Shown here piece by piece: positions 25,676 through 39,842 of a DNA stretch of 64,000 bases; within the stretch, counting starts at the first letter, position 1, and each line of letters starts with the position of its first letter. The stretch lies in NCBI RefSeq assembly GCF_017357105.1, contig NZ_CP071596.1:1178001-1242000 (forward strand). Direction: 5' to 3'. The stretch comes from Natronosalvus caseinilyticus (GTDB lineage Archaea > Halobacteriota > Halobacteria > Halobacteriales > Natrialbaceae). The notes below the pieces were generated by a model. The model made no database searches. It was not told the DNA's origin and saw nothing but the letters and a program-made list of their open reading frames with translations. Position numbers and translations under genes: made by a program.

Positions 25676-25972
25676 ATGAGTACACCTCCACAGGAAGCCG
25701 ATAGCCGCACTGTCGACCTCTCGCGCGAAGAGCGCTGGGTCGTTCATCACGCCCTCGTCCAGCGTGCCGACACGTACCTCGAGGACGAGCGAACCATCCC
25801 GGCGTGGCTCGTCCAGGTCGTCGAGAGCATCGAGGCCGACGACGACACGATTACGGTCAGACAGGGCCAGAAACTCATCTCGCTGCTCCGGGGTGACCGC
25901 GTTTCGATTCCGGACGCGGACCAGGAGGCCGTCGACGGCGCGCTCGTCGAACTCGAGGCCGCGCTGGTCTGA
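25676..25972 (+). CDS. Small conserved haloarchaeal protein
   Basis: A 98-residue acidic protein (MSTPPQEADSRTVDLSREER onward) that looks like a compact helical bundle: ERWVVHHALVQRADTYLEDE, then WLVQVVESIEADD and a final LVELEAALV helix. No cysteines or catalytic motif. I recognise it only as a haloarchaeal hypothetical (possibly the DUF7853 group). A TATA-like CTTATTAG (25616-25623) sits about 55 nt before the ATG, so it may have a short leader. It lies 91 nt after the IPP isomerase gene on the same strand. Confidence 0.7.
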   Translation: MSTPPQEADSRTVDLSREERWVVHHALVQRADTYLEDERTIPAWLVQVVESIEADDDTITVRQGQKLISLLRGDRVSIPDADQEAVDGALVELEAALV

Positions 25973-26219
25973 CGTCCATTTTCGTCCTCACGAACGCGAC
26001 TTCTCGATTCTACGTTACAACCCGTCGAACCGTGCTACCGAACGCGGGATGGCCGTCCATCACACCGAAGCGAACCCCTGGCGCTTCCTTCGGTCGTCGA
26101 ACGCCCAGATTGCTCTCGAGAACTTCCGGAACCTCGAGCAGCGGTTGATACTATCCACGAACGTGTATGACGAGGCGAACCCGAAAGCGTTTTTGAGCAC
26201 GGATGCGGGGATTCAGACG

Positions 26220-26471
26220 ATGACCGCCTACACCGCCACGGTGACCGTCCGACTCAAACGCGGCGTCCTCGACCCCGAGGCCGAGACCACCCGCCGTGCC
26301 CTCGAGCGACTGGGGTTCTCGCTCGAGGCGCTTCGCTCGGCCGATCGCTTCGAGATCGACCTCGAGGCGGCGTCGGCCGACGAGGCGGCTGATCGAGCCG
26401 ACGAGATGGCCGAACGACTGCTCGCGAACCCGACCATCCACGACTACGACGTGGCGGTCGACGAGCGATAG
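26220..26471 (+). CDS. purS: Phosphoribosylformylglycinamidine synthase, PurS subunit
   Basis: An 83-residue PurS, the small bridging subunit of the PurL-PurQ-PurS complex that makes FGAM in purine synthesis. The sequence ATVTVRLKRGVLDPEAETTR and the final HDYDVAVDER are standard. The start at 26220 is supported by a TTTTTGAG box (26190-26196) 27 nt upstream; an open in-frame extension back to 25764 has no family match and overlaps the preceding gene. The 247 nt before it hold no other gene. It is followed at once by a small ORF and then purQ; purL is not in this window. Confidence 0.93.
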   Translation: MTAYTATVTVRLKRGVLDPEAETTRRALERLGFSLEALRSADRFEIDLEAASADEAADRADEMAERLLANPTIHDYDVAVDER

Positions 26472-26618
26472 ATGACGGTGGCACGTGCGTCGACGCCGGT
26501 GCCCATGCCGACGTCGACCGAGACTCGCCACACCGAGAAGCCAACGGTGCCGACGATGACGGTCGCCGTCAACCCGACACCGACCGGGAGTCGCCACACC
26601 AGGGGGTGCCGACGGTGA
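26472..26618 (+). CDS. Possible 48-residue ORF made of duplicated purQ start sequence
   Basis: An ATG directly after the purS stop opens a 48-codon frame (MTVARASTPVPMPTSTET, later MTVAVNPTPTGSRHT) whose TGA (26616-26618) overlaps the purQ GTG at 26615. Three copies of the purQ beginning, [AG]TGACGGT[CG]GC, occur at 26472, 26556 and 26615, and a CGCCACACC...GGTGCCGACG block precedes each of the last two. This looks like an in-place expansion of an ancestral purS-purQ junction. It may be translated, because both ends are coupled to neighbours, but the amino acids show no protein-like conservation. Confidence 0.4.
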   Translation: MTVARASTPVPMPTSTETRHTEKPTVPTMTVAVNPTPTGSRHTRGCRR

Positions 26619-27304
26619 CGGTCGCCGTCGTCCGCTTCGGCGGCTCGAACTGCGACCGCGACGCCGAAGCCGCCCTCGGGCACCTGAACATCGACGCCGA
26701 AATCGTCTGGCACGAGGACGGCCTCCCCGCGGACACGACGGGTATCGTCCTCCCCGGCGGCTTCTCCTATGGCGACTACCTTCGCGCGGGCGCGATGGCC
26801 GCCCGGTCCCCGATCCTCGAGGAGGTGCGCGAGGCGGCCGCCGAGGGCGTCCCCGTCCTCGGGATCTGTAACGGCGCCCAGGTCGGCTGCGAGTCCGGCC
26901 TGACCGAGGGGGCGTTCACGACGAACGAGAGCGCCCGCTTCCAGTGTGAGCACGTCTTCCTGCGCGTCGAACGCACCGACGCGCCCTGGACGGCCGCCTT
27001 CGAGGAGGGCGACGTAATCGAGATCCCGATCGCCCACGGCGAGGGCCGCTTCGAGATCGAGGAGGACCGACTCACCCGCCTCGAGACCGAGGACCGCGTC
27101 CTTTTCCGGTACTGCGACGCCGAGGGCAACCTCACCGACGACGCCAATCCGAACGGCTCGAAGCACAACGTTGCGGGCGTGCTGGGCGAGAGCGAGACGG
27201 TGGCGGTACTGATGCCCCACCCCGAACGGGCGACGCTCCCTGACGTTGGCGGGACGGACGGACAGGAAATTCTGCGCGGATTCGAACGGGCCCTCGAGGG
27301 GTAA
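26615..27304 (+). CDS. purQ: Phosphoribosylformylglycinamidine synthase, PurQ (glutaminase) subunit
   Basis: A 229-residue class I glutamine amidotransferase that feeds ammonia to PurL. The nucleophile Cys is in VLGICNGAQVGCE, the catalytic His/Glu in MPHPERATLP, and the N-terminus TVAVVRFGGSNCDRD is the PurQ signature. I favour the GTG at 26615 (MTVAVVRFGG), as in other haloarchaea; the GTG at 26606 would add three residues and lie within the repeated junction. Length is normal for PurQ. Co-transcribed with purS. Confidence 0.93.
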   Translation: MTVAVVRFGGSNCDRDAEAALGHLNIDAEIVWHEDGLPADTTGIVLPGGFSYGDYLRAGAMAARSPILEEVREAAAEGVPVLGICNGAQVGCESGLTEGAFTTNESARFQCEHVFLRVERTDAPWTAAFEEGDVIEIPIAHGEGRFEIEEDRLTRLETEDRVLFRYCDAEGNLTDDANPNGSKHNVAGVLGESETVAVLMPHPERATLPDVGGTDGQEILRGFERALEG

Positions 27305-28790: not shown

Positions 28791-31700
28791 ATGGACACAC
28801 GAACCCGCGTCATATACGTCGACCCCGACTGCACCGATCGCGTCGCCTCCGCCGTTCGAGCAGTCGGTCTCGACCTCGAGTGCGTCGAGAGCGACGAGGC
28901 GTGTCTCGACCGACTCGAGTCCGCCGATTGCGTCATTACGGAGTACGACCTCGGCTCCGCCGCGAGAACTGGCCTCGACCTCCACCGAGCGATTCGCCGG
29001 CGGGCGCCGGACGTTCCGGTCGTGCTCTACACCGACGCCGGTACCGAAGCCATCGCGGGCGAGGCGCTCGCCGCCGGCGTCGCCGGCTACGTTCCGAAGT
29101 CACAGGGCGTCGAGACGCTCGTGACCCGCGTGCTCGAGGCGATCGTCGAGACGGAAACCGGTGCTAACCCGGACCTCGGTCACGGCTCCGATTCCGAACC
29201 CGACTCCGGTCTCAACTCAGACTCAGAACCCGAACCCGACCCCAACCCCCACCCTGACTCCAGCGACTCGTCCTCGCTCGCAAAAACGCACGACGAGCGA
29301 AACGAATCGTTCCTCGAGTCGTCTCCTGACCACGTCCACCTCATCGTCGAGCAGTCGCCGTTTGCGATCATCAAGTGGACTCCCGATTTCGAGGTCCGCC
29401 ACTGGAACGACGCCGCGGCCGACCTGTTCGGCTACACCGCGGCGGAAGCGATTGGCCGTCACGCGACCGACCTCGTCGTCCCCCGGGAGCAACGCGACGC
29501 GATTACCGACTGGTGGGCGACCTGGCTCGAGGGCGAGCCGAGTACGAATCACGGTATCTCGCGAAACGTCGCCAAAGACGGGACGTCGTTTCGGTGCGAG
29601 TGGTCCACGACGCCCCTTGTCGACGCTGACGGCACCGTCACGGGAGCCCTCTCGTTCGTCCGCGACATGACGTCGGAGTTTCGGCGGTCGCTCGCACTCG
29701 AGACGCTCCAGGAGACGACCCAGGCGCTGATGCAGACGAGTTCGGAGGCCGAAATCGGCTCGCTGGTCATCGACGCGACGGACGAGATTATCGACGACGT
29801 CCTCGCCGGTATCCGGGTCTACGACGAGGACGCGAACCGACTCGACCTGGTGGCGGTGAGCGATCGACTCGAGGAGCAAACGGTGCAGTTTACGCCGGTC
29901 GGTCCCGGCGACGACCCGCTGTGGTCGACCTACGAATCCGGATCGCCGGTCGTCATCGAGGACGCCTCCGCGGAGATGGTCCCCTACGACCTCACCGACG
30001 AGGTGGGCAACGCCGTCATCTACCCGCTCGGCGAGCACGGCCTGCTGACCGTCGCCGCCTCCGGGTCCGCCACGATCGAGGAGACCGACCTCACCTTGAT
30101 ACAAATTCTCGCGGCAACGGCCGAAGCCGCCTTCGACCAGGCCGCCCGCGAGCGCGAACTCGAGCGGGCGAAGACGGTCGTCGAGGCCGTCGGCGATAGC
30201 CTGTATGCCGTCGACACCCAGGGGACGCTCGTCACGGTCAACGACACGATGGTCGAGATCACCGGTTACGATCGGGACACCCTCGTCGGACTCCACGCCT
30301 CCGAAATCCTCACTGACGAGAGTTTCGAGCGCGGCGCCCGGGTGGTCGAACGGCTCGCTGCTTGCGACGGCGACGGCGGCAGAGACGAGGTCGCGACCTA
30401 CGACGTCGACATCGTCAGCGCGAGCGGGGACATCGTCCCCTGCGAGGTCAACACCACGCTCCTCGAGGACGAAGGCGACCTCTCGGGCAGCGTCGGCATC
30501 CTCCGGGACGTCACCGATCGAAAGCAGATGGAACGAGAGCTCGTCGATCATCGGGAGAAGATGGCGAAACTCCACGAGATCGCCTCCCGCCTCGACTCGT
30601 GTGAAACGCCCCAGGACGTCTACGACCTCACCGTCGAAACCGCCGAGGACGTCCTCGAGTTCGACGTCTGCGTCGTCGACCGCGTCGACGGCGAGTACCT
30701 CGAAACCGTCGCCGTCTCCTCGACGATCCACGAAGACGGGTTCTCGAGTCGCGCGCCGATCGATCAGGGCATCGCCGGGAAAACCTATCGAAACGACCGG
30801 ACGTACCGGCTCGACGACCTCAGAGCCGACGAGGAGGCAACGCCCGAACGCGACTCCTACCGGTCGGCGCTGAGTGCGCCGATCGGAGGCCGCGGAATCT
30901 TCCAGGCGGTCTCGACGGACGTGGGTGCGTTCGACCGGGCCGACCAGGAACTGACCGAGTTGTTGCTCTCGCACGTCACGGATACGCTCGACCGTCTCGC
31001 GTTCGAAACCCGGCTCAAGGCGGAACGCGACCGCTTCGCTGCGCTCTTCGAGAACGTCCCCGACGCGATCGTCAGCACGAAGCGCGTCCCCGAGGGCCCG
31101 ATCGTCGAGCAGGTGAACCCGGCGTTCGAGCGAATATTCGGGTACGAGGAGTCCGAACTGCTCGAGGAACCGCTCGATTCGTTCATCGTGCCTCCCGATC
31201 GCTTCGGGCACGCCCAGGAGATCAACGAGCGCGGGACGAAGGGAGAGGCTGTCGAGGCGGAGGTCAAGCGTCGGACGAGCGACGGGCTCCGCGACTTCAT
31301 GATGCGGGTCGTCCCGATGGACATGACCGGATCGACCGACCGCGCGTTCGGCCTCTACACCGACATCACGGCCCAGAAACAGCACCAGAAGCGCGTCGAG
31401 ATCCTGAATCGCGTCCTCCGACACGATCTGCGAAACGGCATGAACATCATCAACGGCTGCGCGGAGATGCTCGCGGAGGTCGTCGAGGACGAGGCCGACC
31501 GGGACTTTGCCGAAGCGATTCAGGAACGGGCTGGCGAACTCATCAGCCTCGCCGAGAAGACCCGAGCGGTCGAACGAACGCTGGATCGCGACGGCGCGGC
31601 GACCGGCCCTGTCGACGTCGTCGACTGCGTCGAAACCGCCCTCGACCGAATCGACACGGAGTACCCGTCCGTGGACGTCGACTGTACGCTCCCCGATCGG

Positions 31701-32087
31701 GCACACGCTCGTGCCGACGAACTCCTCGCCGACGCGATCTTCCACGTCCTCGAGAACGCCATCGAACACAGCGACCGGGCGGAACCGACGATCGAGATCG
31801 GTCTCGAGGTGGACGACGACGACACGCTCACGCTCACGGTCGCCGACGACGGCCCCGGCATTCCTGGGGAAGAGCGTGCGCTCTTGCAGGAAGACGAAGA
31901 GATTACCCAGCTCCGTCACGCCAGCGGGCTCGGGCTGTGGCTCGTCAACTGGGTGATCACCCAGTCCGGCGGTCAGTTGACCTTCCAGGAGAACGATCCG
32001 CGAGGCACCATCGTCAGGATGCAGATCCCGACGGCCGACGTGCCGACGCGCTCAGCGGCGATGGACGGGACGGCGGCGAGCGACTGA
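28791..32087 (+). CDS. Multi-domain PAS/GAF sensor histidine kinase
   Basis: A 1098-residue cytoplasmic kinase without TM segments. Order: degenerate receiver-like domain (1-120; the usual phospho-acceptor position in VITEYDLG is Glu51), Asp/Ser/Pro-rich linker (124-160), PAS (180-300), GAF (305-455), PAS (460-580), GAF (595-740), PAS (745-865), HisKA with H878 in NRVLRHDLRNGMNI, and HATPase (about 970-1085; DDGPGIPGEE, then GLGLWLVNWV). It should autophosphorylate on H878. Start chosen at the ATG 28791; a TTG at 28752 is possible. The nearest downstream genes are a second kinase and a CHAT-like protein. Confidence 0.9.
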   Translation: MDTRTRVIYVDPDCTDRVASAVRAVGLDLECVESDEACLDRLESADCVITEYDLGSAARTGLDLHRAIRRRAPDVPVVLYTDAGTEAIAGEALAAGVAGYVPKSQGVETLVTRVLEAIVETETGANPDLGHGSDSEPDSGLNSDSEPEPDPNPHPDSSDSSSLAKTHDERNESFLESSPDHVHLIVEQSPFAIIKWTPDFEVRHWNDAAADLFGYTAAEAIGRHATDLVVPREQRDAITDWWATWLEGEPSTNHGISRNVAKDGTSFRCEWSTTPLVDADGTVTGALSFVRDMTSEFRRSLALETLQETTQALMQTSSEAEIGSLVIDATDEIIDDVLAGIRVYDEDANRLDLVAVSDRLEEQTVQFTPVGPGDDPLWSTYESGSPVVIEDASAEMVPYDLTDEVGNAVIYPLGEHGLLTVAASGSATIEETDLTLIQILAATAEAAFDQAARERELERAKTVVEAVGDSLYAVDTQGTLVTVNDTMVEITGYDRDTLVGLHASEILTDESFERGARVVERLAACDGDGGRDEVATYDVDIVSASGDIVPCEVNTTLLEDEGDLSGSVGILRDVTDRKQMERELVDHREKMAKLHEIASRLDSCETPQDVYDLTVETAEDVLEFDVCVVDRVDGEYLETVAVSSTIHEDGFSSRAPIDQGIAGKTYRNDRTYRLDDLRADEEATPERDSYRSALSAPIGGRGIFQAVSTDVGAFDRADQELTELLLSHVTDTLDRLAFETRLKAERDRFAALFENVPDAIVSTKRVPEGPIVEQVNPAFERIFGYEESELLEEPLDSFIVPPDRFGHAQEINERGTKGEAVEAEVKRRTSDGLRDFMMRVVPMDMTGSTDRAFGLYTDITAQKQHQKRVEILNRVLRHDLRNGMNIINGCAEMLAEVVEDEADRDFAEAIQERAGELISLAEKTRAVERTLDRDGAATGPVDVVDCVETALDRIDTEYPSVDVDCTLPDRAHARADELLADAIFHVLENAIEHSDRAEPTIEIGLEVDDDDTLTLTVADDGPGIPGEERALLQEDEEITQLRHASGLGLWLVNWVITQSGGQLTFQENDPRGTIVRMQIPTADVPTRSAAMDGTAASD

Positions 32088-32130
32088 TTCGAGCGGGTCA
32101 CGACGGCGATTCGCGGGAGCCACAATGGCT

Positions 32131-32139
32131 TTAATATGT
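32131..32139 (+). promoter_or_regulatory. TATA box of the second kinase gene
   Basis: TTTAATATG centred about 25 nt before the ATG at 32160, so the second kinase and the CHAT-like gene probably have their own leaderless bicistronic promoter. Confidence 0.55.
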
Positions 32140-32159
32140 GGGAATCGATCGCTATTATC

Positions 32160-34538
32160 ATGGATACCCCCGAAATGTCGCTCCTGCTGGTCGGTTCGCC
32201 GCCCTGCAGGGACGACCTCACGTCCGTACTGTCGAATGCGGGGTGGTCCCTACGAACCGAATCGACTGTCGAGGATGCGCGAGCGCGACTCGTGGCGGAT
32301 TCGTCGGACTCGGTCGACTGTCTCCTCGTGGCGACGGGCTCGCCCTACGAGACGGTTTCGGCGCTCGAGGAGGTTCGACCACTGGTTCCGATTCTGGCGT
32401 TGCTTCCCGATTCTGATTCTGATTCTATCACTGACCCCGATCTCGACCCCGTTCCTGACCCCGACATCCCCAGCGATCCCACCGCCGACCCAGCCACGAT
32501 TCTGGAGGCAGGGGCCACCGATTACGTCGTCCAGGCGGGGTCGATCGAGGCATGGGGTCCGCTCCTCTGTCGGCGACTCGAGGTGGCTCGCGACCGCGCT
32601 CTGGAACGCATCGCCTCGCGTGCGTTGTACGACGGGGCCCACGGAACGGACGCGGCACTTCACTGCCTGTTCGACGCGGAGTTACGACACGTCGTCGCCG
32701 TCGGCGGGGCGCTCGGTCGCGGCCTCGAGGCGTCGTCGCTCGAGGGCGTTGCGATCGACGAACTGGCGGCAGACGGGTCCGTCGACTCGGACGACCGCTC
32801 CGAGAGCGGCCTGGACCCGGGCGCCTGCACCCACCTCGAAGCCAACTACGTCGCCGCGCTTGAGGGAACCGCTCGGCGACGGGAATTTCGCCTCCGTGGA
32901 CGCCCGTACGCGGTCGAAACGACGCCCGTCCCGGACCTCGAGGGCCGGTTCGGCATCGCCCGGTATCGACCGGTGCCGGAAACGACGCCCCGGGAGACCC
33001 GGGACAAACTCGATCGCCTCTCGGCAATCGCTTCGGAACTCGACGAGTACGACGACGAGTCTCTTATCTGTCGACGGACGGTCGAAACCGCTGCCCAGGT
33101 CCTCGAGTTCGACGCGTGTTCGATCACCGAACGGATAGACGACGAACTCGTCCCGCTCGCGGCGACCGCGTCGGACCCATCACAGTCACTCGAATACCAC
33201 TCCGCCGACGACGGAATCGCCGGGGAGACCCTTCGCCGGGGTAAATCGATCGTCGTCGACGACATTCGCGACGACCCGGTCGCCCGATCGACCGACGATC
33301 GCTACCGGTCGGGGCTCTCGATCCCGGTCGGGGAGTTTGGCGTGTTCCAGGCGGCGTCGGTCGAGCCTCGCGCCTTCAGCGATACCGACCGCGAACTCGC
33401 CGAACTGCTCGTCTCCAACGCCACCCACGCGATCGAACGGGTTCGCTACGATCGGACGATCACCCGCGAACGCGACCGCTTCGCGGCACTCTTCCAGAAC
33501 GTGCCGGATGCGGCCGTCCAGTACGTCGTCGAGACGGACGAGTCCGGCGAGCCCAAACCCATCGTCGAAGCCGTCAACGCGGCGTTCGTGCGGCTGTTCG
33601 GCTACGAACCGGTGGACGCCATCGGCCAGTCGACGTGCGACCTGCTGGTCCCGGACGACGACGAGGCGCTCGAGGCCGCCCGGTCGCTCTACAACACCGT
33701 CGCCCAGGGCGAGCGCCTCGAGGCGGAGGTAACCCGACTGGGCGTCGACGGACTCGCCCCGTTCTTGCTCCGGAGCGCCCCCGTGGGAACCGACGGCGAC
33801 GACCAGCGCGGCTACTTCATCTACACCGACATCGGCGAACTCGTCGAACGCGAACGTCAACTCGAGCGCCAGAACGAACGCCTCGATACGTTCGCCTCGG
33901 TCGTCAGTCACGACCTGCGAAACCCGCTGTCTATCGCCAGCGGCTACCTCGAAACGGCCCTCGACACGGGAGAGCGCGAACACCTTCACGTCGTCGCCGA
34001 GGAACACGACCGAATGTACGACATGATCGAAGACCTGTTGCAACTGGCTCGTCAGGGCGACTCGATCGGCGACGTCGAACCCGTCGACCTCGAGGCCGTC
34101 GCCGAGCGCTCGTGGGACGGCGTCGACACCGCCGACGCGACCCTGTCGATCGAGTCGGTACCGGCGGTCGAGGGTGACGCCGACCGCTTACAGCACCTCT
34201 TCGAGAACCTGTTTCGAAACGCGGTCCTCCACGGGGGCGATCAGGTCTCCGTCACCGTCGGGACCTGCGAGAACGGCTTCTACGTCGAAGACGACGGTCC
34301 GGGCATTCCGGACATGATGAAAGACGAAGTCCTCGAGATGGGCGTCTCGACGGCGAAAGGGCAGGGTGGAAACGGGTTCGGGCTGGCGATCGTTTCCGAA
34401 ATCGCGGTGGCACACGGCTGGCGCGTCGACGTCGTCGACGGCGCCGCGGGCGGCGCTCGCTTCGAAATCTCGATTGACGAGAGTCGACTCGGCGGCCTCG
34501 AGTCGCTGACCGGCGGGGCTGGTGGTCGGGACAGATGA
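32160..34538 (+). CDS. PAS/GAF sensor histidine kinase coupled to a CHAT-like protein
   Basis: A 792-residue cytoplasmic kinase. A receiver-like domain (1-145) is split by an Asp/Pro/Ser insert (84-112) and lacks an obvious phospho-acceptor Asp (CLLVATGSPYE). A PAS-like region (150-270), GAF (285-430), PAS (435-560), HisKA with H584 in SVVSHDLRNPLSIA, and HATPase (650-780; DDGPGIPDMM, GFGLAIVSEI) follow. The GAF-PAS core closely parallels that of the first kinase (IAGET/IAGKT, QAASVE/QAVSTD), so the two are probably paralogues. Its stop overlaps the next gene's ATG (ATGA, 34535-34538). No response regulator gene follows, so the CHAT-like protein may be the output. Confidence 0.9.
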   Translation: MDTPEMSLLLVGSPPCRDDLTSVLSNAGWSLRTESTVEDARARLVADSSDSVDCLLVATGSPYETVSALEEVRPLVPILALLPDSDSDSITDPDLDPVPDPDIPSDPTADPATILEAGATDYVVQAGSIEAWGPLLCRRLEVARDRALERIASRALYDGAHGTDAALHCLFDAELRHVVAVGGALGRGLEASSLEGVAIDELAADGSVDSDDRSESGLDPGACTHLEANYVAALEGTARRREFRLRGRPYAVETTPVPDLEGRFGIARYRPVPETTPRETRDKLDRLSAIASELDEYDDESLICRRTVETAAQVLEFDACSITERIDDELVPLAATASDPSQSLEYHSADDGIAGETLRRGKSIVVDDIRDDPVARSTDDRYRSGLSIPVGEFGVFQAASVEPRAFSDTDRELAELLVSNATHAIERVRYDRTITRERDRFAALFQNVPDAAVQYVVETDESGEPKPIVEAVNAAFVRLFGYEPVDAIGQSTCDLLVPDDDEALEAARSLYNTVAQGERLEAEVTRLGVDGLAPFLLRSAPVGTDGDDQRGYFIYTDIGELVERERQLERQNERLDTFASVVSHDLRNPLSIASGYLETALDTGEREHLHVVAEEHDRMYDMIEDLLQLARQGDSIGDVEPVDLEAVAERSWDGVDTADATLSIESVPAVEGDADRLQHLFENLFRNAVLHGGDQVSVTVGTCENGFYVEDDGPGIPDMMKDEVLEMGVSTAKGQGGNGFGLAIVSEIAVAHGWRVDVVDGAAGGARFEISIDESRLGGLESLTGGAGGRDR

Positions 34539-36556
34539 TCGACATCTCGGTGATCGATACGACTATCCGTGCGACCGATCCGGCCGACAACAGCGTCGAA
34601 CTCGACGTCGTCGGCTGGGATCGCATCGACGATCACTACACGTTCACCGAACCGGTCGACGACGTGATCTCTGCTCGAGTGTCAGAGCTTGCGTTGCCAG
34701 CGAACTTCCCACTCCTCTCGGAAGTCTTCGCCGACGGTACCGCCCGTCGACGCGCCGCCATCGACGACGAAAGCCGACTCGATATCGATCCCGGCTCGTA
34801 TCGGCTGCTGATCGAGGCGCCGGTTCAGGTGACGATCCGGTTCGACGGCGAGGCCACGATCAGGTCCACCGACGGCGAACTCACGATTTCGTTTCCCCAC
34901 CCACAGCGAGTGAGCCTCGGCTTCACGACCTGGCTCAAACGCCCGCGAGAGACGATCACCGTCCCGCGAACGCCCGAGGGGATCGCGACGGGACTCTCAC
35001 ACATGTCAGCGTCGATTCGAGCGGCCAATTCGCAAAAAGTCACGGCCATGAACCGGCCTCACCCGCCGAGAATCCGATACGACGACTCGCTCGAGGTGCC
35101 GGACGCCGTTCGCAATCGCACCCCCGAAACCGGAATCGAACTGCGGATTCCATCCAGTCTCGAGTACCTGTTTCCCGCCGCCCCGCTCGTCTACTACCTG
35201 GGTGCCAGGATTCGCCTCGGACCCGGCGATCCCGTCCTCTCGATCGACGGTGCGGAACGGTATCGGTTCGAGTCGATGCCGGGATTCCAGTACCAGTGTG
35301 CGTCCCTGCTCAGGCGCGTGTTCCTGCTCGACATGCTGGTGCGAAGCGATCAGCACACCGACGTCCCACCCCAGGAACTCGACTTGTTCTCGCTCCTCGA
35401 GTTCGACCCTGCTACCTGCGTCGACTTCGAACCGGGTCCCCAGCTCGCGTACTACCTCGAGGCCGACTTCGAGCGAATCAGCCACGCCCTGCCGGACTGG
35501 CACTTCGTCGGATACGTCGAGCCGACGCTAGACCACGTCGAGGCGATCCCGTACCTGCTCCAGTACCTGGCGACGATCTATCACCCAGCGGCCGCGCCGG
35601 GATCGACGTCCGGCGGCGAGGCGCATCGACGCTGGCAACGGGCACCCGACACCGTTCCACGGCGGCTCGTCGAAGGCGGTCCGCACGGGAGCGCCGCGGT
35701 CTGGATGGCCGACGGCGCGCCGCCGGATCCGACGCTGTTTCGCGCGTCGCCGGCGGGCTTCGTCAATCGACCCGAGTACGTCGACCGCGCGGAAACTGCC
35801 GGAAGCGTCGTCGTCGTCTGCAACGATGCGAGTCGAACCGACGAGTGTGCGGCTGCCGTGAACCGCTACCGCACCACCGGCCCCGCGGACATCGACCTCG
35901 AGGTTCGCACCGACCTCTCGTGTGCCGACCTGCGCGAGCAATTCGAACGGGGAGCCGACTTCCTGCACTTCGTCGGCGACTGTCGAGACGGACTGTCGTG
36001 TCCAGACGGCACGCTGGCCCTCGAGACCCTCGAGCAATCGCACGTTCGACTCTTCTTCCTCGATGGGTACGATTCGCTCGAGGCAGGCGAGACCTGCATC
36101 GAACGCGGGAGCGTCGGCGGATTCGTCCGGGGAGCGGGCGAACTGAATCCGGCCTACCGCGAGCGACTGCTCGGACTGTTCGCCCAGGGACTCACCGTCG
36201 ACCAGACGGTTCGCTACGCCGCTCTCCCTGCCGACGAGCGAGGAGACGTTGTCGCACTCGGCGACGCCCATCAGCAACTCGCGAGAATGTTGAACCTCTA
36301 CTGCGTCCCCGCCGTCGTGGAGGCCCGTGACGCGCTCACCTACCAGGTGGAGGCCTACCCCTACATTCCCGAGGCGGGCTTCATCTGGCGACCGGGGCCA
36401 CTCAACGTCGAACCCCGACTCTGTGGCAACCCGTTTCACCTGACCATGTCGGGGGTACAGTTCGAGTCGCTGGTCGAGTTCGAGAACTTGCTGCCCATCG
36501 AGGGCGACACCGTCTACTGGGACTCGAGTCGGGGCCTGTTCTACCCGCTGTTTTGA
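34535..36556 (+). CDS. Large protein with degenerate CHAT (caspase-like) domain
   Basis: A 673-residue soluble protein coupled to the kinase upstream by ATGA. Residues 1-180 look beta-rich (PGSYRLLIEAPVQVTIRFDG); residues 200-400 are a middle domain with SSLEYLFPAAPLVYYLGARI; neither is recognised. Residues about 422-590 follow the CHAT layout: VVVVCNDASRTDECAAAVN, then ADFLHFVGD, then VRLFFLDGYDS, then GGFVRGAGELN and LLGLFAQGLTVDQTVRYA. In active CHAT proteases the second and third blocks read LHFAGHG and LNACDS; here the His is Asp482 and the Cys is Tyr512. It therefore looks like a pseudoprotease, perhaps a scaffold or sensor output. CHAT assignment is from pattern only. Confidence 0.7.
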   Translation: MIDISVIDTTIRATDPADNSVELDVVGWDRIDDHYTFTEPVDDVISARVSELALPANFPLLSEVFADGTARRRAAIDDESRLDIDPGSYRLLIEAPVQVTIRFDGEATIRSTDGELTISFPHPQRVSLGFTTWLKRPRETITVPRTPEGIATGLSHMSASIRAANSQKVTAMNRPHPPRIRYDDSLEVPDAVRNRTPETGIELRIPSSLEYLFPAAPLVYYLGARIRLGPGDPVLSIDGAERYRFESMPGFQYQCASLLRRVFLLDMLVRSDQHTDVPPQELDLFSLLEFDPATCVDFEPGPQLAYYLEADFERISHALPDWHFVGYVEPTLDHVEAIPYLLQYLATIYHPAAAPGSTSGGEAHRRWQRAPDTVPRRLVEGGPHGSAAVWMADGAPPDPTLFRASPAGFVNRPEYVDRAETAGSVVVVCNDASRTDECAAAVNRYRTTGPADIDLEVRTDLSCADLREQFERGADFLHFVGDCRDGLSCPDGTLALETLEQSHVRLFFLDGYDSLEAGETCIERGSVGGFVRGAGELNPAYRERLLGLFAQGLTVDQTVRYAALPADERGDVVALGDAHQQLARMLNLYCVPAVVEARDALTYQVEAYPYIPEAGFIWRPGPLNVEPRLCGNPFHLTMSGVQFESLVEFENLLPIEGDTVYWDSSRGLFYPLF

Positions 36557-36577: not shown

Positions 36578-37702
36578 CTACCGCGTGAGCGGCTGGTTGA
36601 ACCCCGTTTCGAGGTCGAGGACGGCCTCCCAGGTCGCCTCGCACTCACACGAAACCTGCTCGAACACCGATGGGTCCTGGCGCAGGTCGAAGTCCTTGAT
36701 CGCCTTCTGGACGAGGTCGTCACACTCCCCGCAGTTGTGGGCGCCGCGGTCGGTGCCGTGGCCGACCGGATCGGAGACGACGATGCCGTCGACGTCCGCG
36801 GTCTGCTCGAGGACGGCGGCGACCGACCAGAGCCACGGCGGGCGGTAGCCATCCTGGAAGTAGAGGTCGTCGACCATGGTGTAGCGCTGGACGTTGCAGG
36901 GGTTCATCGAGACGGTGTGACAGCCGTCGACGGCCAGGCAGCGTTCGACGGAGGCGACCATGTCCTCGAGAGCCTCCGATTCGGTGAGGAAGGGGGGTTT
37001 CATGAGGAGGTAGGCTTTGATGCCGGCGCCGCCGGTGGGTTTCTCGCCGGTCTCAGAGGAGGCGTCACCGGCCCCGTCCGCCGCGACCGCCTCCGCACAG
37101 GCCGCCTCGAACGCCTCGAAGTCGAAGTACTTGTTCACGCAATCGCGACGCACGCGGTCGGTCGCCGTCTCGAGGCCGATCGCCACGTCGGTCTGGAGGC
37201 CGTACTGCGTGAAGTCGCCGATCTTCTCGCGGTCGACGAAGTCGGGCAGCGACTCGAGGACGATCCGCTCGCGGTCGCCGAAAGTCTCGGCGATGGCCTT
37301 CCGGGACTCGGCGCTCACTTCGCGTTCGTCGAGGAACGACCCGGAGGTGTAGATCTTGATCAGGGGTGCTGGCTCGTCGGCCTCGTCGGCTTCGTGATCC
37401 AGACAGACCTGGATCTGGTCCATCAGCGCCCCGTGGGGGACCGTCCCGCCGTCGACGCTCTCGGCGACGTAGCCACACATCGTACAGCCGCCGGCACGCG
37501 CCCAGCGACAGCCGCCGGTGTTGAGGATGATCGTCAGGCTCTCCCTGACGCCATTGGGCGTGTTGTCCTCGTCGAGCCAGACCCGCGTCGGTTCGTGGGG
37601 GTCGTAGCTCTTCTCTTTGCGCGAGCGAACCTCGCGCATCACCTGGTTGTGGGCGTCCATGCCCTTGCCCTGCTCGTAGACCTCGGGCGTCGGCTGGCTC
37701 AT
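36578..37702 (-). CDS. Archaeosine biosynthesis radical SAM protein RaSEA
   Basis: A 374-residue radical SAM enzyme. With ArcS it converts preQ0-Lys-modified G15 of tRNA to archaeosine. Family hallmarks: SLTIILNTGGCRWARAGGCT followed by MCGY, with cluster ligands C65, C73 and C76 (C-x7-C-x2-C, the wide spacing known from Elp3-related radical SAM proteins), then IKIYTSGSFLDE and the late CNVQRYTMVDDLYF and HNCGECDD segments. An Asp/Glu/Gly linker around residue 215 is an insertion. The ATG at 37702 (MSQPTPEVYEQG) matches the usual N-terminus; the frame continues upstream to 38119 without family similarity. ArcS is not in this window. Confidence 0.85.
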   Translation of the reverse strand: MSQPTPEVYEQGKGMDAHNQVMREVRSRKEKSYDPHEPTRVWLDEDNTPNGVRESLTIILNTGGCRWARAGGCTMCGYVAESVDGGTVPHGALMDQIQVCLDHEADEADEPAPLIKIYTSGSFLDEREVSAESRKAIAETFGDRERIVLESLPDFVDREKIGDFTQYGLQTDVAIGLETATDRVRRDCVNKYFDFEAFEAACAEAVAADGAGDASSETGEKPTGGAGIKAYLLMKPPFLTESEALEDMVASVERCLAVDGCHTVSMNPCNVQRYTMVDDLYFQDGYRPPWLWSVAAVLEQTADVDGIVVSDPVGHGTDRGAHNCGECDDLVQKAIKDFDLRQDPSVFEQVSCECEATWEAVLDLETGFNQPLTR

Positions 37703-37809
37703 TACCGGAGGAAGCGTCTCGAGGGGTAAAGCGGCTTCGGGACGTACACAGTAGTTAAAGAGGCCGTTCGCTCGTGGGTGGAGACGTTCGTCACTTCGTG
37801 CGGCTGTCG

Positions 37810-38445
37810 TCACGAATCCGGATTCGAAACCCGGAGCGCGAACCCCCACTCGAGCGAGACGGCTTTGTCCGCGTCCCATCTCGCGTCCGGGTCGTCCCAC
37901 CCCGAAACGCGCTGGCTCCAGTGGTAGGTTCCGGGCTCGAAGTAGCCTTCGACCTGAAAGTCGTGCCACACCTCGTACTCGGTGACGATCGACTCGCCGG
38001 GGTCGTACGCCCGGGGCGGACAGCCCTGAGTGGTGAACGTTCGCCCTTCGTCTGCATCGCGGTCCTCGACCCACCTGCCATCGACCCGCTCGAGGTGGTC
38101 GATGTGTCTGTAGAGCCACAGCCCCTCGGGGTCGTCGCTTCCGCCTCTCGATCGGTTGAACAGACTACACCCGGCTTCGCCCACGGAGAGCGCCCGTTCG
38201 TCGCCCTCGTTCGTCGTCCGCACCTCGAGACGTGCCGATTGATCTTCCGTTACCGTCTCCTCGAGTAGCGTCACATCGATCGAGAACCCGTACTCGTCGG
38301 GAATCGACTCCTGTTCGACCAGCGCGAGTTCGCGCTCGGTGTTCTTTGCTCGGGCGCTCGAGGTCGATCCAATCTCGCCGAGACAGCCGGCGGCTCCGGC
38401 GACGAGGGCGGCGGCGGATCCGGTGAGGAGGGCACGGCGGTGCAT
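37810..38445 (-). CDS. Tat-exported lipoprotein, unknown function
   Basis: A 211-residue lipoprotein: MHRRALLTGSAAALVAGAAGC has a twin arginine, a hydrophobic run and a lipobox with C21. The mature part begins with a polar linker and is a beta-rich domain (RLEVRTTNEGDERALSV, YDPGESIVTEYEVWHD, FEPGTYHWSQRV) like an immunoglobulin-type or BsuPI-like fold. Two further cysteines (in EAGCSLF and TQGCPPRAY) could form a disulfide. No partner gene. Start at the ATG 38445, because it puts the signal sequence at the N-terminus. Unrecognised function. Confidence 0.8.
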   Translation of the reverse strand: MHRRALLTGSAAALVAGAAGCLGEIGSTSSARAKNTERELALVEQESIPDEYGFSIDVTLLEETVTEDQSARLEVRTTNEGDERALSVGEAGCSLFNRSRGGSDDPEGLWLYRHIDHLERVDGRWVEDRDADEGRTFTTQGCPPRAYDPGESIVTEYEVWHDFQVEGYFEPGTYHWSQRVSGWDDPDARWDADKAVSLEWGFALRVSNPDS

Positions 38446-38582
38446 ACCTGTAGTGACAATACGCCTGAACGTAATCCTTCGGGTGGTGCTGCTTGCTTCA
38501 GGTGGCGGCGCCGATGGCCGGTGACACCGCGTCCCACGACGTGTCAAAGGGTACTTACCTGCGGCTCCGTTCTAGAGAGACA

Positions 38583-39842
38583 ATGAGTCAGGAGGGAGAG
38601 CAGGCCAGTTCCGACCGGAAGAAGTACGAGTTCCGGAAGGTCATCGAGGACCTCGACAACTACGAGGGGTCGGGAACCCAGCTCGTAACGATCTACGTCC
38701 CCGAGGACCGCCAGGTCAGCGACGTCGTCGCCCACGTCACCCAGGAACACAGCGAGGCGGCGAACATCAAGTCCAAGCAGACCCGGACGAACGTCCAGGA
38801 CGCCCTCAAGAGCATCAAGGACCGGCTCCGCTACTACGACACTTACCCGCCCGAGAACGGCATGGTGCTGTTCTCGGGCGCCGTCGACTCCGGCGGTGGC
38901 CAGACCGAGATGATCACGCGCGTCCTCGAGAGTCCGCCCGACCCGGTCGAGTCCTTTCGCTACCACTGCGACTCGAACTTCCTGACCGACCCACTCGAGT
39001 ACATGCTCGAGGACCACGGCCTCTACGGGCTGATCGTCCTGGACCGCCGGGAGGCCAACGTCGGCTGGCTGAAGGGCAAGCGCATCGAACCCGTCAAGTC
39101 CGCCTCCTCGCTCGTCCCCGGCAAGCAGCGGAAAGGTGGCCAGTCCGCCCAGCGATTCGCCCGCCTCCGTCTCGAGGCCATCGATAACTTCTACCAGGAG
39201 GTCGCGGGGATGGCCAACGACCTGTTCGTCCCGAAGCGTCACGAACTCGACGGCGTCTTGGTCGGCGGCCCCTCCCCGACGAAAGACGAGTTCCTCGACG
39301 GCGACTACCTCCATCACGAGATTCAGGACGCGGTCTTAGGGAAGTTCGACGTCTCCTACACCGACGAGTCCGGCCTGAAGGACCTGGTCGACAACGCCGA
39401 GGACGCCCTGGCCGACGCCGAGGTGATGAAGGACAAGAAGCACATGGAGCGCTTCTTCAAGGAACTCCACAGCGGGGAACTCGCCACCTACGGATTCGAC
39501 CAGACTCGACGCAACCTCGTGATGGGCTCAGTGGAGACCCTCCTGATCAGCGAGGACCTCCGCAAGGACGTCGTCACCTTCGACTGCGAGGCCTGTGGCA
39601 ACACCGACTACGACCTGATCGACCGCCGGAAGGCCACGCCGTCCCACGAGTGCAGCGAGTGTGGCACCGCGGTCGAGGCCACGGACGAAGACCGCGAGGA
39701 CGCCATCGAGCACCTCATCACGATCGCCGAACAGCGCGGCACCGAGACCAAGTTCATCTCGAGTGACTTCGAGAAGGGCGAACAGCTCTACAACGCCTTC
39801 GGCGGTATTGCGGGCATTCTCCGGTACGATACGGGCATCTAG
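38583..39842 (+). CDS. prf1: Peptide chain release factor aRF1
   Basis: A 419-residue translation termination factor that reads all three stop codons and triggers peptide release. Stop-codon recognition motif NIKS is at residues 61-64 and the catalytic GGQ at 185-187 (GKQRKGGQSAQ). The C-terminal domain ends in a zinc-type pair of CxxC motifs (FDCEACGNTD and HECSECG). Length is typical for archaeal aRF1. The ATG at 38583 gives MSQEGEQASSDRKKYE; the frame upstream is not conserved. Single gene, convergent with nothing, facing the lipoprotein gene divergently. Confidence 0.95.
   Translation: MSQEGEQASSDRKKYEFRKVIEDLDNYEGSGTQLVTIYVPEDRQVSDVVAHVTQEHSEAANIKSKQTRTNVQDALKSIKDRLRYYDTYPPENGMVLFSGAVDSGGGQTEMITRVLESPPDPVESFRYHCDSNFLTDPLEYMLEDHGLYGLIVLDRREANVGWLKGKRIEPVKSASSLVPGKQRKGGQSAQRFARLRLEAIDNFYQEVAGMANDLFVPKRHELDGVLVGGPSPTKDEFLDGDYLHHEIQDAVLGKFDVSYTDESGLKDLVDNAEDALADAEVMKDKKHMERFFKELHSGELATYGFDQTRRNLVMGSVETLLISEDLRKDVVTFDCEACGNTDYDLIDRRKATPSHECSECGTAVEATDEDREDAIEHLITIAEQRGTETKFISSDFEKGEQLYNAFGGIAGILRYDTGI

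Follow-up and report, generated by a model that had tools for sequence, protein, structure and literature searches.

Three genes lie in a row on one strand at 28791–36556 of the window (the whole stretch of DNA analysed, 64 kb in length; Table 1), as the earlier note had described; they encode two soluble sensor kinases, K1 and K2, and a CHAT-like protein, P0003. The stop codon of K2 and the start codon of the CHAT-like gene share an ATGA, which is consistent with translational coupling of the two. The flanks are ordinary: purS and a purQ-type glutamine amidotransferase gene lie upstream (window 25676–27304), and archaeosine RaSEA and the archaeal release factor aRF1 are encoded downstream (window 36578–39842). 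The anti-phage defence models of PADLOC gave no match for K2 or the CHAT-like protein and a single weak one for K1 (E = 0.013); a reading of the three genes as an anti-phage system has no support from this source and was dropped.

Table 1. Features of the K1–K2–CHAT-like locus (window coordinates)
Feature	Position	Strand	Length or start	Basis
K1, soluble sensor kinase	28791..32087	+	1098 aa	Pfam
K2, soluble sensor kinase	32160..34538	+	ORF from 32136, best start ATG 32160	Pfam
Pseudo-CHAT (P0003)	34535..36556	+	673 aa	AlphaFold, structure matches, alignment
ATGA overlap, K2 stop/CHAT start	34535..34538	+		sequence
Codons of D510-G511-Y512, the former Asn-Ala-Cys nucleophile site	36062..36070	+		alignment

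In K1, Pfam recognizes the order receiver-PAS-GAF-PAS-GAF-PAS-HisKA-HATPase; the HisKA domain scores under the Pfam cut-off (21.5 versus 26.9), and the HDLRN motif and ATP boxes are present. K2 comprises GAF, PAS, HisKA (54.5 bits) and HATPase_c (64.3 bits) domains, the HisKA histidine being H584 (numbered from the start at 32160). Both the HDLRN phospho-histidine motif and the ATP boxes are conserved across the aligned CHAT-paired kinases, and K2 is predicted to be a cytosolic sensor histidine kinase with its catalytic motifs kept. (The kinase partner at one related locus, L071, loses its frame past the G1 box.) The GAF-PAS-kinase cores of K1 and K2 are homologous, with 33% identity over 535 columns (E = 3e-60), in keeping with their proposed paralogy. 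The suggestion that both kinases begin with a receiver-like domain is borne out only for K1, where Response_reg reaches 39.1 bits (cut-off 30.2) and, on our reading of the sequence, Glu replaces the phospho-accepting Asp; the N-terminal part of K2, described as receiver-like or PAS-like, has no receiver match in Pfam. The K1 domain, with Glu at the phospho-Asp position, is the sole receiver in the 64 kb; apart from K1 and K2, a profile search of the window found no receiver, kinase, HalOD1 or DUF7504, which bears out the claim that no response regulator is encoded nearby. This does not mean that K2 lacks one, because response regulators may be encoded elsewhere in the genome.

P0003 is difficult to place by sequence: it has no Pfam match at E 0.1 (and thus none to CHAT, PF12770, above the curated cut-off), none in NCBIfam or PADLOC, and none in a sequence search of the PDB. 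A scan of the contigs with the single protein found no relatives; an alignment-based scan recovered them. The AlphaFold model of P0003 (pLDDT 86.2, pTM 0.88) and that of a relative from Haloarcula sebkhae with intact catalytic residues (pLDDT 83.5, pTM 0.84) were both built on alignments of related-locus sequences. P0003 consists of a β-rich N-domain (residues 1–132) followed by two caspase-like halves at about 140–350 and about 420–585. Its model matches gingipain RgpB (Foldseek probability 1.00, E = 2.9e-4, Z = 17.7), SAVED-CHAT (Z = 16.0), separase and Csx29, whereas the Haloarcula model matches SAVED-CHAT (8tl0; E = 3.3e-7, Z = 18.9), RgpB (Z = 20.8) and, again, separase. The models support a caspase-type fold (CHAT/gingipain/separase, clan CD) for P0003 and its relatives, and it is through these matches, rather than through Pfam, that the label 'CHAT-like' is right at the level of the fold. 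In the second caspase-like half, the catalytic His and Cys have given way to D482 and Y512, confirming that the protease residues have been lost.

P0003 belongs to a pan-haloarchaeal family of some 690 residues for which neither Pfam nor NCBIfam offers a dedicated model; its named loci come from Haloarcula, Halorussus, Haladaptatus, Halobellus and Halogeometricum, among other genera. Relatives were found in 54 of the 61 genomes searched, and the window genome has six copies. The Pfam CHAT model matches 17 of 43 aligned members, with a best E of 1.1e-5; the member at L085 scores 21.4, below the cut-off of 24. Most of the wider family is of the catalytic type and without K2. Among 125 members, a count in which some genomes enter twice via two collections, both dyad residues are kept in 103 ('live') and not in the other 22 ('dead'). 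Neighbouring TbsP, DUF7504 and HalOD1 were assigned by Pfam at L052, L053, L054 and L111, and at other loci by profiles made from these. On this basis, 52 live members lie beside glyA and tbsP, 29 beside DUF7504/HalOD1 and 21 beside other genes; one further live member, from Halorussus litoreus (L111), is beside a kinase and DUF7504 together. In the dead class, a K2-type kinase adjoins 20 members, and the other two belong to a tandem triple with the kinase at its end (L060).

These neighbourhoods differ in their layout. At L052:6556–8634 and many other loci, across many of the haloarchaea sampled, the live gene sits between a divergent glyA and a downstream tbsP; TbsP is cited as a metabolic regulator in Haloferax in PMC13286277. 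L053, L054 and L055, all from the window genome, are among the loci at which a live gene is beside DUF7504 or HalOD1-DUF7504 genes; L054 and L055 each show a 4-base overlap, and one copy is on a 230 kb second contig. In H. litoreus (L111:6416–14804), a receiver-PAS-GAF-kinase, DUF7504 and a live CHAT-like gene are in a row, and another kinase of this type faces them. The tandem triple (L060:4964–13540) is from G017, in the genus of Halovivax asiaticus, and consists of three dead genes followed by one K2. A second dead group, L172 and the L173 tandem, has no kinase, K2 or other, and falls outside the kinase-paired dead clade; the tandem (L173:2824–8088) is near Bat-type HTH_10 genes, and the single gene at L172:1598–3646 is near cobalamin-type genes. 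The generalization that every dead CHAT is kinase-linked is ruled out by this group.

For a residue-level comparison, further loci were added and near-copies removed, giving 94 live and 38 dead kinase-paired members. H482, C512, N510 and S514 are present in all 94 of the former; in the latter, the Cys is lost throughout (38/38) and the His in 37, a single member keeping it. The kinase-paired dead proteins form one clade (SH-aLRT 100). Most of the residues invariant in, and specific to, the dead class lie in the N-domain (G27-W28-D29 and G47-R48). Two further residues, H478 and C489, are present in all live members and persist in 35/38 and 36/38 of the dead ones, respectively; they could in principle form an alternative pair with which the protein would still be a peptidase. 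In the model, H478 is within strand 474–480 and C489 in strand 487–489, whereas the canonical H482 and C512 of the live class sit at strand ends, following the third and the fourth strand, respectively, and we regard residual peptidase activity of this kind as highly improbable. Position 510, the invariant Asn of the live class, is acidic in 37/38 dead members (Asp in 35, Glu in two). With Asp or Glu at 482 and Asp at 431 in many members, these strand-end residues might make a receiver-like acidic pocket, such that the caspase fold would have been remade as a receiver-like phospho-acceptor for K2. No conserved Lys, as would suit receiver-like chemistry, was seen in the alignment columns looked at, and Asp482 occurs in only 18/38 dead members; for these reasons, we consider this phospho-acceptor role very unlikely.

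The earlier note had made its proposal depend on whether the arrangement recurs in other haloarchaea. Profiles for K2 and for the dead CHAT-like protein were run on 125 Natrialbaceae genomes, and a kinase–CHAT neighbourhood does recur, in 10 genera, albeit within this one family and not across all haloarchaea; it is not unique to this genome, which would have spoken against the note's proposal. The 41 K2 matches of at least 638 bits, from 31 genomes, are without exception beside a CHAT relative: 37 adjoin a listed CHAT match, and in the remaining four (three Natrialba genomes and the same-genus G032) the CHAT-like gene is in long or split frames that were read directly. The next 21 kinases (553–617 bits) are never beside a listed CHAT match, and direct reading of two of these loci (L168 and L171) found none; nor is there a CHAT-like gene beside a K2-like kinase from outside the family (G042; 648 bits). 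All CHAT-paired kinases fall into a single clade (SH-aLRT 96), in which the one row labelled 'other', L153, is the window K2 itself. The K2 and CHAT trees agree in their main groups, and the two distance matrices are strongly correlated (Mantel r 0.946, reached by 0/5000 permutations). Since the catalytic loss and the kinase pairing both seem to go back to a single ancestral change apiece, this perfect association would represent one origin, long kept, and not a series of independent events.

The surroundings of the pair are variable. In the window, the flanks are purS/purQ and RaSEA; for a large subgroup elsewhere, purA is the neighbour, and for other pairs MatE, an M29 peptidase, an ABC transporter or a β-eliminating lyase. 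A Natrononativus plasmid carries one of the pairs, whose products are annotated as an ATP-binding protein and a hypothetical protein. Paralogous pairs occur within a single genome in both G017 (L059, L060 and L064) and the window genome, G000 (window and L051), and the congruence of K2 and CHAT distances extends to them. The changing flanks, in one case those of a plasmid, indicate that it is the pair and not the region that is conserved, and that its two genes move and are duplicated together; with flanks so variable, the purine-gene neighbourhood was dropped as a functional clue. The purA gene common to many pairs might suggest that K2 and the CHAT-like gene are linked merely by accidental conserved synteny, but the pairs are congruent and persist despite changed flanks and repeated duplications, leaving this explanation scarcely credible and close to refuted. 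On comparative sequence evidence, K2 and the CHAT-like protein are evidently a co-inherited two-gene unit of the Natrialbaceae.

K1 does not belong to this unit. It occurs at this position in only three genomes, all of the genus: G000 (the window genome), G007 and G002. In G002, one deletion has removed most of K2 and the CHAT-like gene together, fusing the first part of the former to the last third of the latter, and K1 is intact. This narrow distribution and the G002 deletion rule out a conserved three-gene module, and the two-kinase arrangement previously envisaged has to be given up; K1 is apparently a genus-level addition outside the conserved pair, and may serve as an optional additional sensor.

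The window CHAT-like gene is under purifying selection: comparison with G007 gives dN/dS values of 0.137 for this gene, 0.168 for K1 and 0.202 for K2, which rules out a decaying pseudogene for the window copy. At several related loci, those of Natrialba and G012 included (L184, L164 (Natrialba), L159, L071), K2 or the CHAT-like gene has split frames or in-frame stops, for which sequencing error, inserts or decay are all possible. Mean pairwise identity in the second caspase-like, formerly catalytic domain is 0.34 in the dead class versus 0.55 in the live class (live sample, n = 40), whereas for the β-rich N-domain the corresponding values are 0.36 and 0.35; the ex-catalytic domain has relaxed in the dead class, and the N-domain has not.

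Taken as a whole, K2 and the pseudo-CHAT protein probably constitute a Natrialbaceae signalling module in which a pseudo-protease partner acts by binding rather than by cutting. The pseudo-CHAT protein would bind K2 and work through conformation or binding, with the β-rich N-domain as the likely contact, because most of the class-specific invariant residues lie there. A phosphorylation-driven change in K2 would be passed to the pseudo-CHAT protein, which may then act on a third protein, standing in for a response regulator. We favour such a role as binding output or adaptor, with regulation of the kinase a close second. In the latter case, the pseudo-CHAT protein would be a co-sensor or clamp on K2, and K2 would signal via a response regulator encoded elsewhere. 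That the CHAT-like gene comes first at L031/L074, L060, L063, L064, L177, L178 and L189, such that the gene order of the pair is not fixed, speaks for kinase regulation, as does the purA-linked K2 group, which is without the N-terminal receiver/PAS part and yet retains its CHAT-like partner. Archaeal kinases are, moreover, often soluble and thought to signal via protein–protein contacts (PMC5847659); overall, we hold regulation of K2 to be a tentative possibility. A further alternative is that the pseudo-CHAT protein is a decoy, tuned by K2, that controls the live paralogues of its own genome. Pseudo-enzymes commonly act as decoys of this sort, and inactive caspase relatives control active ones. 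Paralogues with both His and Cys do exist in the window genome, one of them linked to glyA-tbsP and three to DUF7504, but none of the loci read has a live copy next to a dead one, and we think a decoy function unlikely.

Compared with known systems, the pseudo-CHAT protein shares its predicted fold with the clan CD peptidases (CHAT, PF12770; SAVED-CHAT/CalpL; TPR-CHAT/Csx29; gingipain, C25; separase; caspase, C14), and the GH and NAC motifs are still present in the live family members. Unlike these enzymes, P0003 is without both catalytic residues, has no Pfam match and is paired with a histidine kinase. Unlike SAVED-CHAT and TPR-CHAT, it has no SAVED or TPR part that Pfam recognizes, and CRISPR genes were not noticed in its vicinity. 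Similar in setting are the DUF7504/HalOD1-linked haloarchaeal proteins, which are of the same ~690-residue family and also lie beside signalling genes, but which keep His and Cys and usually neighbour DUF7504, not K2. In cyanobacteria, HetF is linked to PatA, a receiver-domain protein. HetF functions in heterocyst development and is likewise a CHAT-type protein that takes part in a regulatory circuit (PMC8406250), but it is bacterial, has transmembrane and TPR parts, is not kinase-paired and requires its own active site (PMC8406250). K2 itself resembles the soluble PAS/GAF kinases of archaeal two-component systems (PMC5847659), but no response regulator is linked to it. The view of Galperin et al. 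(2018; PMC5847659) that archaeal signalling mainly involves protein–protein contacts fits the binding role; the text of their census mentions neither CHAT nor caspase, and our literature searches on CHAT with haloarchaea or kinases returned nothing on this family or the K2–CHAT pair.

Haloarchaea possess many soluble sensor kinases without assigned outputs, and the pseudo-CHAT protein is a concrete candidate partner for one of them. In this one archaeal family, a former enzyme has seemingly been turned into the signalling partner of a sensor kinase; if true, this would show how archaea can reuse a peptidase as a signalling component that no longer cuts.
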